Origin: Clostridia bacterium
GTDB lineage: Bacteria > Bacillota > Clostridia > Christensenellales > Borkfalkiaceae
Length of the DNA: 64,000 nucleotides
NCBI GenBank assembly: GCA_014805025.1
Contig: JAAUYR010000021.1
Coordinates: forward strand, 21,639 to 85,638
Direction: 5' to 3'
In this document: positions 13,733 to 51,567 of the stretch, piece after piece
How positions within the stretch are numbered: position 1 is the first letter of the stretch
Layout of the letters: the number at the start of each line of letters is the position of its first letter
The notes under the pieces: model-generated
The model's database searches: none
What the model saw: only the letters and a program-made list of their open reading frames with translations
What the model was told of the DNA's origin: nothing
Program-made: the position numbers and the translations under genes

Positions 13733-13900
13733 ATTTTTACCTCCTTTTCCGCATATCAAGCGAAAAATTCCCTGTTGCCGCACGGCAACAGGGAACAAGC
13801 AGCGCACAATACGCATTTAAAACTTATTATTCCTGCAACCTCGGTGGGATAATTAAGTCTTGCGACGCCCACTTTCTACGGCAGCAAATTTAATTTACTG
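13733..13900 (-). ncRNA. L10 leader-like structured 5' UTR
   Basis: Minus strand CCACCGAGGTTGCAGG... ending in hairpin TTCCCTGTTGCCGTGCGGCAACAGGGAA (13768-13795) + TTTTT upstream of rplJ; left boundary approximate. Confidence 0.7.
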
Positions 13901-45668: not shown

Positions 45669-45789
45669 AAAAATGCAGAGAAGCGAGCAAGACAAGAAGC
45701 GCGAGGAAAACCCGAAGGAGCTTACTGCGCGTAAGTGACTGAGGGTTGTCGCAGCGCGACGCCGTATTGCGACGCTTATATGCATTTTA
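45669..45789 (-). repeat. Structured intercistronic repeat, family 1, copy C
   Basis: AAAATGCAgagAAGCG...CGCTTatATGCATTTTA; AACCC/GGGTT; CTTAC/GTAAG; just after ABC ATPase stop. Confidence 0.85.
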
Positions 45790-45793
45790 AATA

Positions 45794-46903
45794 TTAATGT
45801 CTCTTTAAGTCGCTTTCAATAACCTCTTCCGTTTCGGCGTCGAAAAGATACGAAGCCGTATGAGGAATAACGAACTTGAAGCTGTCGCCCATCTTGGGTG
45901 CGTAGTGAGGGTTGACCTTTAAGATAACGTTGGTCTTGCCCTCGCCCTCGCCGACGGTTGCGTAAACGTTGGTCGTATCGCCGAGAAGCTCGGTAAGCTC
46001 GACCTTGGAGGTTACGGTATAGCTGGAAGGCTGCGCTTCGAGCTTGATAGCTTCGGGTCTGAACGCGAATACTACCTTTTTGCCTTCGAGCGCCTTAGCG
46101 TCCTTAACGATGGGTTTAATATCGATATTGAGGCCGGATGCAACAAGCTTTCCGCCTTCAACCGTGCCGCGGATAAAGTTCATGGGAGGCTCGCCTATGA
46201 AGCCCGCAACGAACAGGTTCTTCGGGTAGAAGTACAGCTCGTACGGAGTGCCTATCTGCTGAACGTAACCGCCAGACTTCATAACGACTATTCTGTCGGA
46301 CATGGTCATTGCCTCGGTCTGGTCGTGGGTTACGTATATGGTAGTTGCGCCTACCGAGCGGTGAATCTGCTTGATTTCCGAACGCATGGTAACGCGCTGC
46401 TTTGCGTCGAGGTTGGAAAGCGGTTCGTCCATAAGGAAGATGCTAACCTTTCTTATAAGCGCACGGCCTACCGCAACACGCTGGCACTGACCGCCGGAAA
46501 GCGCACGAGGGAAGCGTTCAAGGTAATCGGTAAGACCGAGAATTTTTGCGGTCGCCTGTACCTTTTCTTCGATAATGTCCGCGTCGATACCTTCAAGCGT
46601 CAAGCCGAACGCGAGGTTTTCGTACACGGTGAGGTGCGGATACAGCGCGTACGACTGGAATACCATTGCAATTCCTCTGTCGCGCGAGGACATCTGGTTC
46701 GCAAGTTTGCCGTCGATATAGAACTCGCCTGCGGTGATGTCTTCAAGGCCGGCTATCATTCTGAGCGTCGTTGACTTGCCGCATCCGGAGTCGCCGACAA
46801 GGCAGATAAACTCGCCGTCTTTGATTTCCATATTGAAATCGTGCACTGCGTGGTATCCGTTGGGATACACTTTGTTTACGTCTTTAAATAAAAGTTGTGC
46901 CAT
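45794..46903 (-). CDS. Carbohydrate ABC transporter ATP-binding protein (second MsmX/UgpC-like)
   Basis: GDSGCGKSTTLRMIAGLE; LSGGQCQRVAVGRAL. Confidence 0.95.
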   Translation of the reverse strand: MAQLLFKDVNKVYPNGYHAVHDFNMEIKDGEFICLVGDSGCGKSTTLRMIAGLEDITAGEFYIDGKLANQMSSRDRGIAMVFQSYALYPHLTVYENLAFGLTLEGIDADIIEEKVQATAKILGLTDYLERFPRALSGGQCQRVAVGRALIRKVSIFLMDEPLSNLDAKQRVTMRSEIKQIHRSVGATTIYVTHDQTEAMTMSDRIVVMKSGGYVQQIGTPYELYFYPKNLFVAGFIGEPPMNFIRGTVEGGKLVASGLNIDIKPIVKDAKALEGKKVVFAFRPEAIKLEAQPSSYTVTSKVELTELLGDTTNVYATVGEGEGKTNVILKVNPHYAPKMGDSFKFVIPHTASYLFDAETEEVIESDLKRH

Positions 46904-46967: not shown

Positions 46968-47088
46968 TAAATCTCGGAGATACGAGCAAGACAAGGCGAA
47001 CGAGGAAAACCCGAAGGAGTTTACTTTGCGTAAATGACTGAGGGTTGCCGCAGTTCAACGCCGTATTGCGAAGTATATACGAGATTTA
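46968..47088 (-). repeat. Structured intercistronic repeat, family 1, copy D
   Basis: TAAATCTCG...CGAGATTTA terminal stem; GAAC/GTTC; AACCC/GGGTT; TTTAC/GTAAA; 1 nt from kduI stop. Confidence 0.88.
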
Positions 47089-47089
47089 A

Positions 47090-47959
47090 TTATTTTAAAT
47101 CGCAAGTTTTGATATTATCCATATCGTCATAAGCCTGGTTCTCGCCGCACATACCCCAAATGAAAGTATAGTTGTGAGTGCCTACGCCGCTGTGAATTGA
47201 CCAGCTCGGCGAGATAACCGCCTGTTCGTTGTGCATTATGATGTGGCGCGTTTCCTGAGGCGTGCCCATAAGGTGGATAACCGCCTCGGTTTCGGGAAGC
47301 TCGAAGTACATATACACTTCCATGCGCCTCTCGTGAGTGTGGCTGGGAAGAGTGTTCCAGGCGCTGCCCTCGGCAAGCTCAGTCATGCCCATTGCAAGCT
47401 GACAGCTTTCGCAAACGTCGCCGATAATGAACTGGTTAATCGTGCGCTTGTTTATGCCTTCAAGCGTGCCCAAGTGCCTCTGAACGCAGTACTTAACGCC
47501 CTCGGGAGCAGGTTTGCCCTCAACGGGCTTAACGATTTTTACCGTAGGATAGGTTTTATGCGCCGGACAGGAATTGATATAGAACTTTGCAGGGTGCTTG
47601 CCGTCCTTGGAGGCGAACTCAACCTGCTTGGTGCCCATACCTATATAAATGCCCTCTTTAAAGCCTATATCGTATTTTTTGCCGTCAAGCGTGATAACGC
47701 CCGCGCCGCCGATATTGATAACGCCCATTTCGCGCCTTTCAAGGAAATAATCGGTTGCAAGCTCTTTGAAAGTGCCGAGGGACAGGCTGCCTTTAACGGG
47801 CATTGCGCCGCCGGCGATTATTCTGTCCTGATGGGAATAGGTCAAAAGAATTTCGTCCGCCTCGAACAGCTTTTCAATGAGATATTTTTTTCTGAGTTCG
47901 TCCGTAACGTAATGCTTTGAATCGTCGGGATGGTTTGCGTAACGAATGTCGAATTTCAT
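47090..47959 (-). CDS. kduI: 5-dehydro-4-deoxy-D-glucuronate isomerase
   Basis: MKFDIRYANHPDDSKHYVTDELR...; start refined to 47959. Confidence 0.95.
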   Translation of the reverse strand: MKFDIRYANHPDDSKHYVTDELRKKYLIEKLFEADEILLTYSHQDRIIAGGAMPVKGSLSLGTFKELATDYFLERREMGVINIGGAGVITLDGKKYDIGFKEGIYIGMGTKQVEFASKDGKHPAKFYINSCPAHKTYPTVKIVKPVEGKPAPEGVKYCVQRHLGTLEGINKRTINQFIIGDVCESCQLAMGMTELAEGSAWNTLPSHTHERRMEVYMYFELPETEAVIHLMGTPQETRHIIMHNEQAVISPSWSIHSGVGTHNYTFIWGMCGENQAYDDMDNIKTCDLK

Positions 47960-47974
47960 TAATTTAACTCCTTT

Positions 47975-48156
47975 CACAAATTTTCTTTGCTATTCTGCGC
48001 AAATAAAATTTCGTGATTTTAGCGGCTCTGCCGCTCTTTGCGCAATTTTAAGCGCACACAAATATATAATTGCGCAAATTCACACCGCTGAGGTCGCGTA
48101 GCGACAAATTGGGTGCGCCGGCGCAAAAGCGCGGTTTTGCTTGCGCCGTAAATTGT
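47975..48156 (-). repeat. Structured intercistronic repeat, family 2, copy a
   Basis: Homologous to 49013-49193; hairpins AGCGGCtctGCCGCT, TTTGCGCAATT/AATTGCGCAAA, GTCGCgtaGCGAC. Confidence 0.82.
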
Positions 48157-48162
48157 TTTTAA

Positions 48163-49002
48163 TTACAAGTTGTTCCACTTATTGCGGATAAATTCCGAAC
48201 AAGGAATTATATCGTCGCCCGTCGTTCCCTCTAAAACGAGGTAAGCGTTCCTGTCGTAAGCCTTGATTTTTTTGAGAATTTTATCAAAGTCAAACATTCC
48301 CTTGCCGGGCGCAACCTGCTTTAATTTGCCGTCCTCGAACACGCAGTCTTTTATATGGAAAACTACGATTTTGCCCTCAAAAGTTTTGAGACCCTCGTCT
48401 AAAATTTCAAGGTAGTTTTGGTAATTTGACGCGTCAAGGTAGTTGTAGATATCGAAAATAATTTTGATATTGTCCGCGTTAATCGCGTCCACCGCGCGCT
48501 TTAAAGTTGCAACGTTCCAGCAAACGTGTCCTGCCGCGCCCTCCATTCCTACGAACGCGCCGACGCTCTTTGCGTAAGCGGCAAGCTCTTTAAAAGTTTC
48601 AATTACCGTTGCAAGCGCTTCCTCGGTTCGGTTCAGCGGATTGTACGTCCACTTGTCGTCGTTGAAGCTGCCCGTCTCCGAGCCGACGATATTGCAGCCG
48701 AGGTTTTTTGAATACTTTAAATAGTCCTTAAAAACTGCCTTACAGTTTGCTACCTTTTCTTTATCCGAGTGAACGGGGTTGAAATACGCGCCGATAAGCG
48801 GAACGGAAATATTCGCCTCTTTCAGAGCTTTACCTATCGCCGCGGAGTTGTCCGCGTTGAGCGCTCCGGGCGCGTATTTTATCTCGTCCATAAACTTGTA
48901 AACGACCAATTGCACCGCGGATATGTCGCAGTTTCGCGATTTTTCTATTGCGTTTTCAAGTCCCTTAACGCCCAGGTCGTGGGTGCGAAATGCTATCTGC
49001 AT
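48163..49002 (-). CDS. TIM-barrel sugar phosphate isomerase/epimerase-family protein
   Basis: MQIAFRTHDLGVKGLENAIEKSRNCDISAVQLV...; AP_endonuc_2-like. Confidence 0.85.
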   Translation of the reverse strand: MQIAFRTHDLGVKGLENAIEKSRNCDISAVQLVVYKFMDEIKYAPGALNADNSAAIGKALKEANISVPLIGAYFNPVHSDKEKVANCKAVFKDYLKYSKNLGCNIVGSETGSFNDDKWTYNPLNRTEEALATVIETFKELAAYAKSVGAFVGMEGAAGHVCWNVATLKRAVDAINADNIKIIFDIYNYLDASNYQNYLEILDEGLKTFEGKIVVFHIKDCVFEDGKLKQVAPGKGMFDFDKILKKIKAYDRNAYLVLEGTTGDDIIPCSEFIRNKWNNL

Positions 49003-49012
49003 ATATCCTCCT

Positions 49013-49193
49013 CACGGAATTTTTGTTTCTATTCTGCGAAGCAAAAATTCCGTGATTTGAGGGCTTCTCGCCCTCTTCGCGCAACCAATAGGGCAAACAC
49101 ACGTATAGTTGCGCGAATTCACCTCGCCGAGGTGCAGGTTTGCACAAATTGAGTTGCGCCACGCAAAAACGCGGTTTTGCTTGCGCCGTAAAT
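49013..49193 (-). repeat. Structured intercistronic repeat, family 2, copy b
   Basis: CACGGAATTTTTG/CAAAAATTCCGTG; GAGGGCttctcGCCCTC; TTCGCGCAAC/GTTGCGCGAA; GTGCAggttTGCAC. Confidence 0.85.
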
Positions 49194-49376
49194 TTATTTA
49201 ACGGGGCGCTTTAAAAACAGCCACCAGCCAAAGCTTCCGGTGTTGGGGCACGCGGATACGAGCTCCCAACCCTCTTCGCCCAAAGGCTTTAAAATTTTAT
49301 CGACTTTTGCCGCAGCCTCGTCGCAGTACTTAAATTCGTGCGTTGTAACAAATTCCGTTTTGTATTCGTATTTCAT
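49194..49376 (-). CDS. DUF4177-like small protein
   Basis: MKYEYKTEFVTTHEFKY...LGEEGWELVSACPNTGSFGWWLFLKRP. Confidence 0.7.
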   Translation of the reverse strand: MKYEYKTEFVTTHEFKYCDEAAAKVDKILKPLGEEGWELVSACPNTGSFGWWLFLKRPVK

Positions 49377-49380
49377 TATG

Positions 49381-50453: not shown

Positions 50454-50570
50454 CGTTGGATAGATATAAGCAAGACAAGGAGCGCGAGGAAAACCCGAAG
50501 GAGCTTACAGAGCGTAAGTAACTGAGGGTTGCCGCAGCGCGACACAGTATTGCGAAGTATATATCCAACG
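50454..50570 (-). repeat. Structured intercistronic repeat, family 1, copy E
   Basis: CGTTGGATa...TATCCAACG terminal stem; AACCC/GGGTT; CTTAC/GTAAG; 7 nt from eda stop. Confidence 0.88.
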
Positions 50571-50577
50571 AAGCTAT

Positions 50578-51567
50578 TTATTTTTTAAGAACTAAATGCA
50601 CAGCAAATCCGCCAAACTCGTGCTTCAAATAAGCCACATTCATAACGCCCTCGGCGTTGTACTTGACGCTCGTTTCGTCAATTTCGAAGCCGCGGAGCTT
50701 CAACTGATATGCGGCGCGCTTAACACTGTTGGTCGCAATAGCTATGTGACCCATCTTGCCGCGGAAAGGTTTTTTCATCATCTCCATATAAGTCGACGAG
50801 AAAACCGAGCTGTTGCCGACCTTTTTCTCGAAGCCGAACGCCCTGCCGAACTCGTCGGCAACGGCTTCCGCCTCCTCGGGGTTAGCGCAGTTAAGTCCGA
50901 CGTGAACCATTGTAAAGCCGAGCATTTTATCGATAGCCTCGCGGCAAAGCTTTGTTATGCCCGCCCAGTCGCCGGCGTTTACGAGCGCCGGAGGAACTAT
51001 CCAACTTCCGCCGCAGCAAACTACTTTTTTGTACGAGAGATAATTATTGAGATTATCCGCCGTAACGCCGCCCGTGGGCATAAAGCGCATCGTAGTGTAC
51101 GGGCCGCATACCGCCTTAATGTACGCAAGTCCGCCGGCCTGCTCCGCAGGGAAGAATTTGGCAAAATCAAGCCCCAGCTCCAAAGCCTGCTCAATCTCGC
51201 TTGCCGAGGAAAGCCCCGGCGCAAACGGCACGCCCTTATCAAGGCAATGCTTTACGACAACGGGATTAAGCCCCGGCGCTACGCAGAACTTCGCGCCGGC
51301 TTTTATCGCCGCGTCTGCCTGTGCGCAGGTCAAAACCGTTCCGGCGCCCACAAGCATATCGGGATACGCCTTTGTCATTCTGCGGATAACCTCGTCCGCA
51401 CCCTCGGCACGGAAGGTCACCTCGGCGCAGTTTATACCGCCGTCGCGCAACGCTTTTGCAAGTTTTTCCGCGTCGTCAACGTTATCAAGCTTGATTACGG
51501 GCACTATGCCTACGTTTTCCAGCTCGTCCACAAGCGCGTTAATTTTGTCTTTTACTGTTACTGCCAT
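50578..51567 (-). CDS. eda: KDPG/KHG aldolase with C-terminal VOC-like domain
   Basis: GINCAEVTFRAEGADEVIRRM; VGAGTVLTCAQADAAIKAGAKFCVAPG; C-terminal ~110 aa HVGLNCANPEEAEAVADEF... Confidence 0.92.
   Translation of the reverse strand: MAVTVKDKINALVDELENVGIVPVIKLDNVDDAEKLAKALRDGGINCAEVTFRAEGADEVIRRMTKAYPDMLVGAGTVLTCAQADAAIKAGAKFCVAPGLNPVVVKHCLDKGVPFAPGLSSASEIEQALELGLDFAKFFPAEQAGGLAYIKAVCGPYTTMRFMPTGGVTADNLNNYLSYKKVVCCGGSWIVPPALVNAGDWAGITKLCREAIDKMLGFTMVHVGLNCANPEEAEAVADEFGRAFGFEKKVGNSSVFSSTYMEMMKKPFRGKMGHIAIATNSVKRAAYQLKLRGFEIDETSVKYNAEGVMNVAYLKHEFGGFAVHLVLKK

Follow-up and report, generated by a model that had tools for sequence, protein, structure and literature searches.

Dispersed bacterial repeats with intrastrand-triplex potential, namely the PIT, BoxC and TM elements, were reportedly described by Hoyne, Maher et al. 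in 2000. The case for or against an in-vivo role of DNA triplexes has so far rested mostly on in-vitro experiments and on the triplex potential of sequences. These repeats are dispersed, mostly intergenic and near genes of all kinds, with the potential to form purine-motif intrastrand triplexes; the search of Holder et al. took a stem of 6-15 triplets with loops of 1-6 nt, distinguished a class I with the order reverse-Hoogsteen strand (5'), purine arm and pyrimidine arm, and placed the Escherichia coli TM motif in class II (PMC4666352). For E. coli PIT elements, no in-vivo effect and weak in-vivo footprints were reported (PMC4666352). MITEs and BOX, ERIC, bcr and other small dispersed bacterial repeats have been reviewed (PMC10969869, PMC2229807), and are short, non-coding, multi-copy, intergenic and hairpin-forming, lack a transposase of their own and are variably present among relatives. 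REP/BIME repeats, which are accompanied by RAYT (Y1) transposases (PMC3733652), are extragenic palindromes of 20-40 bp that are probably recognised as single-stranded hairpins.

The element considered here, about 180 nt long, occurs in two copies (a and b) in the window, i.e., the whole 64,000-nt stretch of Clostridia DNA that was analyzed, and shares the dispersion, the gene surroundings and the triplex potential of the first set of repeats, the traits listed for the second set, and the palindromic, extragenic character and probable single-stranded recognition of REP/BIME. From comparative sequence data, copies a and b are members of a dispersed non-coding DNA repeat family limited to one family of uncultured gut Clostridia, and the element is probably a MITE/BoxC-like non-autonomous one whose single-stranded DNA would fold into five hairpins plus an intrastrand triplex; a probability of about 0.62 is assigned to this explanation as a whole. 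Its strand order is that of Holder's class I, and by covariation its proposed third strand (T) matches the purine arm of the duplex in antiparallel sense through G*G:C, A*A:T and T*A:T, which is the PIT/BoxC-type triplet rule. Compared with the TM motif, however, the stem is only 4-5 triplets long in most copies, an entire hairpin (H3, ~42 nt) takes the place of the first loop, and the triplex would lie inside a ~180-nt five-hairpin element. It thus falls outside the ITxF definition (at least 6 triplets, loops of 1-6 nt), and an ITxF search would miss it because these stem and loop limits exclude it. The three-way covariation described below is new relative to the PIT/BoxC work, and the word "compensatory" is absent from PMC4666352. 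Unlike MITEs, BOX, ERIC and bcr, the element has five covarying hairpins and no known parent transposon, and no element-spanning terminal inverted repeats or target-site duplication were found. Because it falls short of the ITxF size and neither a parent transposon nor a target duplication was found, it is not counted as a member of the triplex-repeat or MITE families. Membership of the REP/RAYT group was rejected, the element being ~180 nt rather than a 20-40-nt hairpin and the Y1 (RAYT) transposase being absent from its own genome (G000) and two relatives (G034 and G052).

The two copies, their hairpins and the size of the family

The sense of the element is that of the window's minus strand, on which the two copies and their parts are arranged as follows.

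47974 to 48149, minus strand: copy a, separating the TIM-barrel gene from kduI; scores 198.9 bits against model R1
48115 to 48149, minus strand: copy a H1, the 5' hairpin ACGGCGCAAGCAAAACCGCGCTTTTGCGCCGGCGC (helices 1-2 of the model)
48093 to 48105, minus strand: copy a H2, GTCGC-TAC-GCGAC (helix 3; 98.4% of cells paired)
48082 to 48086, minus strand: copy a third strand T (GGTGT), for which covariation suggests an antiparallel position along the 5' arm of H4
48037 to 48078, minus strand: copy a H3, TTTGCGCAATT...AATTGCGCAAA, with a conserved apical loop, between T and H4 (helix 4; 100% of cells paired)
48021 to 48035, minus strand: copy a H4, AGCGGC-AGA-GCCGCT, which would supply the duplex of the triplex (covariation model)
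47974 to 48016, minus strand: copy a H5, the 3' hairpin TCACG...GTGA, with a hypervariable stem and GCGCAGAATAGC loop (helix 6)
49012 to 49189, minus strand: copy b, upstream of the TIM-barrel gene; 170.4 bits to model R1
49156 to 49189, minus strand: copy b H1 (model)
49132 to 49145, minus strand: copy b H2, GTGCA-AACC-TGCAC (model)
49121 to 49125, minus strand: copy b third strand T (GAGGT); H4 triplets 1-3 fit (T*A:T, G*G:C, G*G:C), 4-5 do not
49076 to 49117, minus strand: copy b H3 (model)
49059 to 49075, minus strand: copy b H4, GAGGGC-GAGAA-GCCCTC (model)
49012 to 49055, minus strand: copy b H5, CACGGAATTTTTG/CAAAAATTCCGTG (direct reading)
47090 to 47959, minus strand: putative kduI-like gene (named by the sequence-only reading), downstream of copy a and outside the element
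48163 to 49002, minus strand: putative TIM-barrel sugar-isomerase-like gene, downstream of copy b and outside the element

The window's only Rfam match is a ribosomal protein L10 leader (RF00557, 71.6 bits) at 13754-13899 on the minus strand.

An initial reading of the window made from the sequence alone had described two homologous stretches of about 180 nt with coordinately differing hairpins, and this description was borne out: the copies align end to end, every hairpin it quoted is present in both, and direct reading together with the minus-strand alignment confirms the coordinated changes. The 13-bp stem it had reported in H5 indeed pairs perfectly in copy b and almost perfectly in copy a. 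Its count of two copies was too low, since the source genome (1.32 Mb, ~85% complete) has 10 copies by DNA search and 12 full copies plus one weak copy by covariance model. Such a covariance-model search, which the same reading had proposed as a check, recovered many further copies with the pairings kept. A first-pass DNA search with the consensus matched 51 of the 61 genomes of the genus, and the covariance model R1 (built from 46 copies, 45 pairs), when applied to 297 genomes of the order, matched 18, all of the same family (genera g1, g3, and g5). An exact-pattern scan of GTDB genomes returned 63 loci, all in metagenome-assembled genomes of uncultured gut-type Clostridia. Ten loci were counted in 100 kb of G034 and ten in 80 kb of G052, densities that are biased upward because these contigs were chosen as copy-bearing. 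No earlier description of the repeat was found in the open-access literature searched.

From 5' to 3', the element consists of H1 (consensus ACGGCGCAAGCAAAACC-RCG-CTTTTGCGCC..GCGC), H2, a linker ending in GNNNTGAATT, H3, whose apical loop is conserved, rich in A/T and ends in TGCCCTTA, H4, and H5 (TCACG..variable stem..loop..CGTGA). When folded as single-stranded DNA and compared with 200 dinucleotide shuffles, copies a and b gave z-scores of -4.0 and -5.7, respectively, and none of the shuffles folded as well. Two-sided changes were detected in 40 of the 45 modelled pairs; across the 46 copies, 96.6% of cells were paired (shuffled 76.0 +/- 0.6) and the covariation score was 0.523, compared with 0.149 +/- 0.008 after shuffling and 0.06-0.11 for slid registers. 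In genus g3, two minimal forms of 98 nt (L099 and L102) consist of H1-H2-H5 without the middle module, and other copies carry an unrelated middle module (TATTGTCTGATGAAAC..GCGGCTAAGAG..CCGC). The H1-H2 and H5 ends can therefore be regarded as the constant part of the element, since the middle is what differs or is missing in these g3 copies. At the 3' end, most copies have GTGAAC, and those directly upstream of a start codon have GTGAGGAG or GTGAAAGGAG.

Covariation between the linker and the fourth hairpin

A mutual-information analysis of 103 copies recovered the helices and, in addition, a link of linker positions 65-68 to H4 (115-129). Read antiparallel to the 5' arm of H4, linker T has T or A opposite A:T, G opposite G:C and T opposite C:G, which is the code of an antiparallel purine-motif DNA triplex (G*G:C, A*A:T, and T*A:T) plus T*C:G. 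In the purine motif, T is the third-strand base best tolerated opposite an inverted C:G pair. The first four positions in 48 copies sharing less than 80% identity gave 183 triplets, of which 172 follow this code, compared with 117.5 +/- 4.9 (maximum 135 in 2000) when linkers were shuffled between copies; under the strict code without T*C:G, the figures were 160/183 and 113.2 +/- 4.6, and shifted registers of T and H4 fit at 33-74%. As the relation was found on the copies of the first set, a hold-out test was run on non-redundant copies outside the discovery alignment, some of them from the same genomes as the first set, in which 131 of 140 triplets fit (130/140 strict; shuffled 86.8 +/- 5.2).

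Shared descent needed to be limited, so each copy was also paired with its nearest relative, judged by the rest of the element, that has a different H4. In these contrasts (n = 57), a copy's own linker fit better in 50 cases, equally well in 7 and worse in none. The 50 contrasts may not all be independent origins, since T-H3-H4 could move as one cassette by recombination; such cassette recombination could lower the number of independent co-changes, and the matched cassettes must still arise. When all four-base windows were scanned against all helices in both directions, the T/H4 placement ranked first (z = 10.3), and the next two windows (z = 7.9 and 6.8) involved the same strands. Watson-Crick pairing between T and H4 was tried and rejected, as it fits worse, with 42/187 antiparallel to the 5' arm and 119/187 parallel to the 3' arm. 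The triplex would be only 4-5 triplets long in most copies, with just three fitting in copy b, and the fifth triplet position gave no significant association (p = 0.08). Longer purine runs are confined to copies of G044 and G351, in which those of the linker and those of the purine arm of H4 mirror each other by eye.

H3 would stand in for the loop of a class I intrastrand triplex, because the linker runs into H3 and H4 starts directly after it. Three-way covariation over about 100 natural copies differs in kind from the evidence available so far for DNA triplexes and is the kind that established RNA tertiary contacts; if read correctly, it would be rare comparative evidence for selection on a natural bacterial DNA triplex. 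The natural variants of the element also provide material for a direct test of triplex formation.

DNA or RNA, and the propagation of the repeat

Purine-motif triplexes with the antiparallel G*G:C, A*A:T and T*A:T pattern have been stated to be unable to form in RNA (Holder et al., PMC4666352), although whether an RNA third strand is excluded from R.R:Y triplexes has been noted to depend on its sequence (PMC7515735); the code followed by T and H4 therefore points to DNA and not to mRNA. This bears on the possibility that the element is a structured RNA, transcribed as a dispersed small RNA, an mRNA-stability element or the RNA part of a mobile element, with T and H4 forming an RNA tertiary contact. 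Two-sided covariation of this strength, together with conserved loops that are single-stranded, is what structured RNAs typically show; some G-U pairs exist in H1 and H4, and many copies sit within operons, where they are presumably transcribed along with the genes. However, copies are found in both orientations relative to the flanking genes, which fits a DNA element, no Rfam match was obtained either at the gathering threshold or at E <= 1, and neither an intrinsic terminator nor a promoter was detected in the element above chance. G-T wobbles account for 1.6% of element cells versus 4.1% in the tRNA stems of the same genus, the ARAGORN control being informative for the G-T fraction only, as its bracket line leaves mismatches unpaired and A-C is zero by construction. 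In H2, H3 and H5, G-T is no commoner than A-C, which speaks against RNA, whereas in H1 and H4 it exceeds A-C. The wobble argument is weak on its own because of these two hairpins, and, given the same excess, some RNA-level selection may exist. Taken together, a structured RNA is considered rather unlikely.

It is also conceivable that the element is a passive repeat in which template switching during replication, or the correction of quasi-palindromes, maintains the match between arms, the fold itself being unselected. The arms vary freely between copies and are yet nearly perfectly matched with few wobble intermediates, and H5 stems are hypervariable, as such a process would produce. Nevertheless, no correction between arms can bring a separate third strand into line with a triplet code that sets T or A against A:T and T against C:G, bases that are neither a copy nor a complement, and the conserved loops and linkers require selection or recent common descent. 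Passive maintenance is thus improbable.

Under the preferred DNA reading, the element would be a non-autonomous mobile or amplified intergenic repeat of the MITE/REP/BoxC sort. Its folded form would probably be single-stranded DNA, for example on the lagging strand or in a transposition intermediate, with linker T lying in the major groove of H4 and H3 taking the place of the connecting loop. The folded shape might be recognised by a protein or process that copies, moves or keeps the element, of which the 5' module (H1-H2) and the 3' module (H5) would be the ends and H3-T-H4 a middle that can be replaced or missing. That a natural DNA triple helix is under selection here, so that three strands of a mobile repeat co-evolve and the repeat is propagated as folded DNA by some enzyme, is regarded as an even chance. 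If the DNA reading is right, the single-stranded DNA of these elements adopts a fold with tertiary structure, and an enzyme recognising it is there to be found.

Searches for a mover covered several candidates. PF01797 (Y1 transposase) had no match in G000, G034 or G052, and RVT_1 was absent from the high-copy genomes G034 and G052 and present in the zero-copy genome G055; a Y1/RAYT transposase or a reverse transcriptase was rejected as the mover, neither having any relation to copy number. Y1 transposase loci did not carry the ends of the element, no transposase gene was flanked by them, and no long autonomous version was present in the 1.44 Mb of loci examined. Seventeen H1-H2 matches without the usual middle were found, all in genus g3 or G351, and none of them contains a gene. 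At five sites compared between G034 and G052, terminal inverted repeats and target-site duplications were not evident, the boundaries being fuzzy by a few nt and the alignments too diverged to reveal a duplication.

Gene context, empty sites and neighbouring repeats

The order of a third gene, presumably kdgK (a putative name given from reading the protein), the TIM-barrel gene and kduI is kept across the genus, and both junctions vary in whether an element is present. The TIM-kduI gap contains the element in G000, G050, G036 and G044, is reduced to 5-10 nt without an element in G008, G048, G052, G034, G012 and G060, retains a remnant in G004 (the 3' half of H5 only), and holds other repeats in other genomes. 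At the kdgK-TIM junction, the kdgK stop codon directly abuts the TIM ATG in eight genomes (G004, G008, G048, G005, G022, G025, G046, and G029), while a full copy is present in G054, a decayed copy in G049 and a different repeat in several genomes. Between G034 and G052, whose syntenic DNA is ~90% identical, further sites carry the element in only one of the two genomes. Both occupied and vacant orthologous sites are thus seen, as for MITE-like dispersed repeats, and since these junctions are empty in relatives, the copies must be either later arrivals or subject to gain and loss, and the genes work in their absence. As a separate feature of the source genome, a short gene-like stretch lies between kdgK and copy b (window ~49193-49380, minus strand); relatives whose genes abut have no such stretch at this junction.

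Among 76 copies whose surroundings were classified by simple, mechanical ORF calling, so that single calls can be wrong, 28 lie in sense between tandem genes, 18 antisense, 12 between convergent and 12 between divergent genes, and 6 have a neighbour beyond the edge of the locus. Often, a convergent gene has its stop codon 1-6 nt away from the 3' end of the element.

The sequence-only reading had proposed that translation of kduI and the TIM-barrel gene could be gated by the fold. Its structural part holds, i.e., a structured family with compensating hairpins and an H5 stem that is flush with the Shine-Dalgarno sequence of the next gene in both copies (AAGGAGTTAAATTAATG at 47957-47973 for copy a and GAGGAGGATATATG at 49000-49013 for copy b), whereas control of translation by the fold was not supported, both junctions being without the element in most relatives and copies occurring in every orientation. 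A paired 5' leader of this kind is very improbable: several further copies likewise end at a Shine-Dalgarno sequence, and the full and decayed copies of G054 and G049 do lie upstream of the TIM gene, but most relatives with the same gene order have empty junctions with the genes 0-10 nt apart, most copies are antisense, convergent, divergent or outside these pathways, and the stem leaves the Shine-Dalgarno sequence free instead of pairing it. It is on the empty orthologous sites and the mixed orientation that this explanation is disfavoured. A cis-regulatory leader or riboswitch was rejected as a class, as neither position nor orientation upstream of orthologous genes is conserved. Covarying hairpins beside a Shine-Dalgarno sequence hence need not be riboregulators. 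For the DNA repeat favoured here, effects on kduI and the TIM-barrel gene would be incidental, and copies may have a local side-effect on expression.

Other repeats were observed in the same regions. A "family 1" repeat (~118 nt, GACAAGG..CGAGGAAAACCCGAAGGAG..CTGAGGGTTGCCGCAG..) occurs three times in the operon region of the window (45678-45795, 46977-47094, and 50461-50578) and seemingly also at the kdgK-TIM or TIM-kduI junctions of G020, G050, G051, G052 and G034. A third repeat (~60 nt, GCACCTTATTATCTGAA..TTTATAATAAGGTGTGCAAAGCGTCGCT..CGCTCGCACG) is nested in H2 or H3 of the element at L010 and L012 and in the TIM-kduI gaps of G050, G036 and G044, as if one repeat had been inserted into another. 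A sister repeat (GAAAAAGCGGAAACCACGCTTTTCGCTTTTTC..), which matches the element in its five-hairpin plan and has little sequence in common with it, stands in tandem with the element in G351 (L074, L078, and L080). Head-to-tail arrays of the element itself were detected at L031 (G060) and at L083 and L084 (G027), with a period of ~190-197 nt and an A/T-rich spacer (AACATTCTAAATAATTCACGG), and adjacent units in these arrays differ in linker T and H4 in matched fashion.
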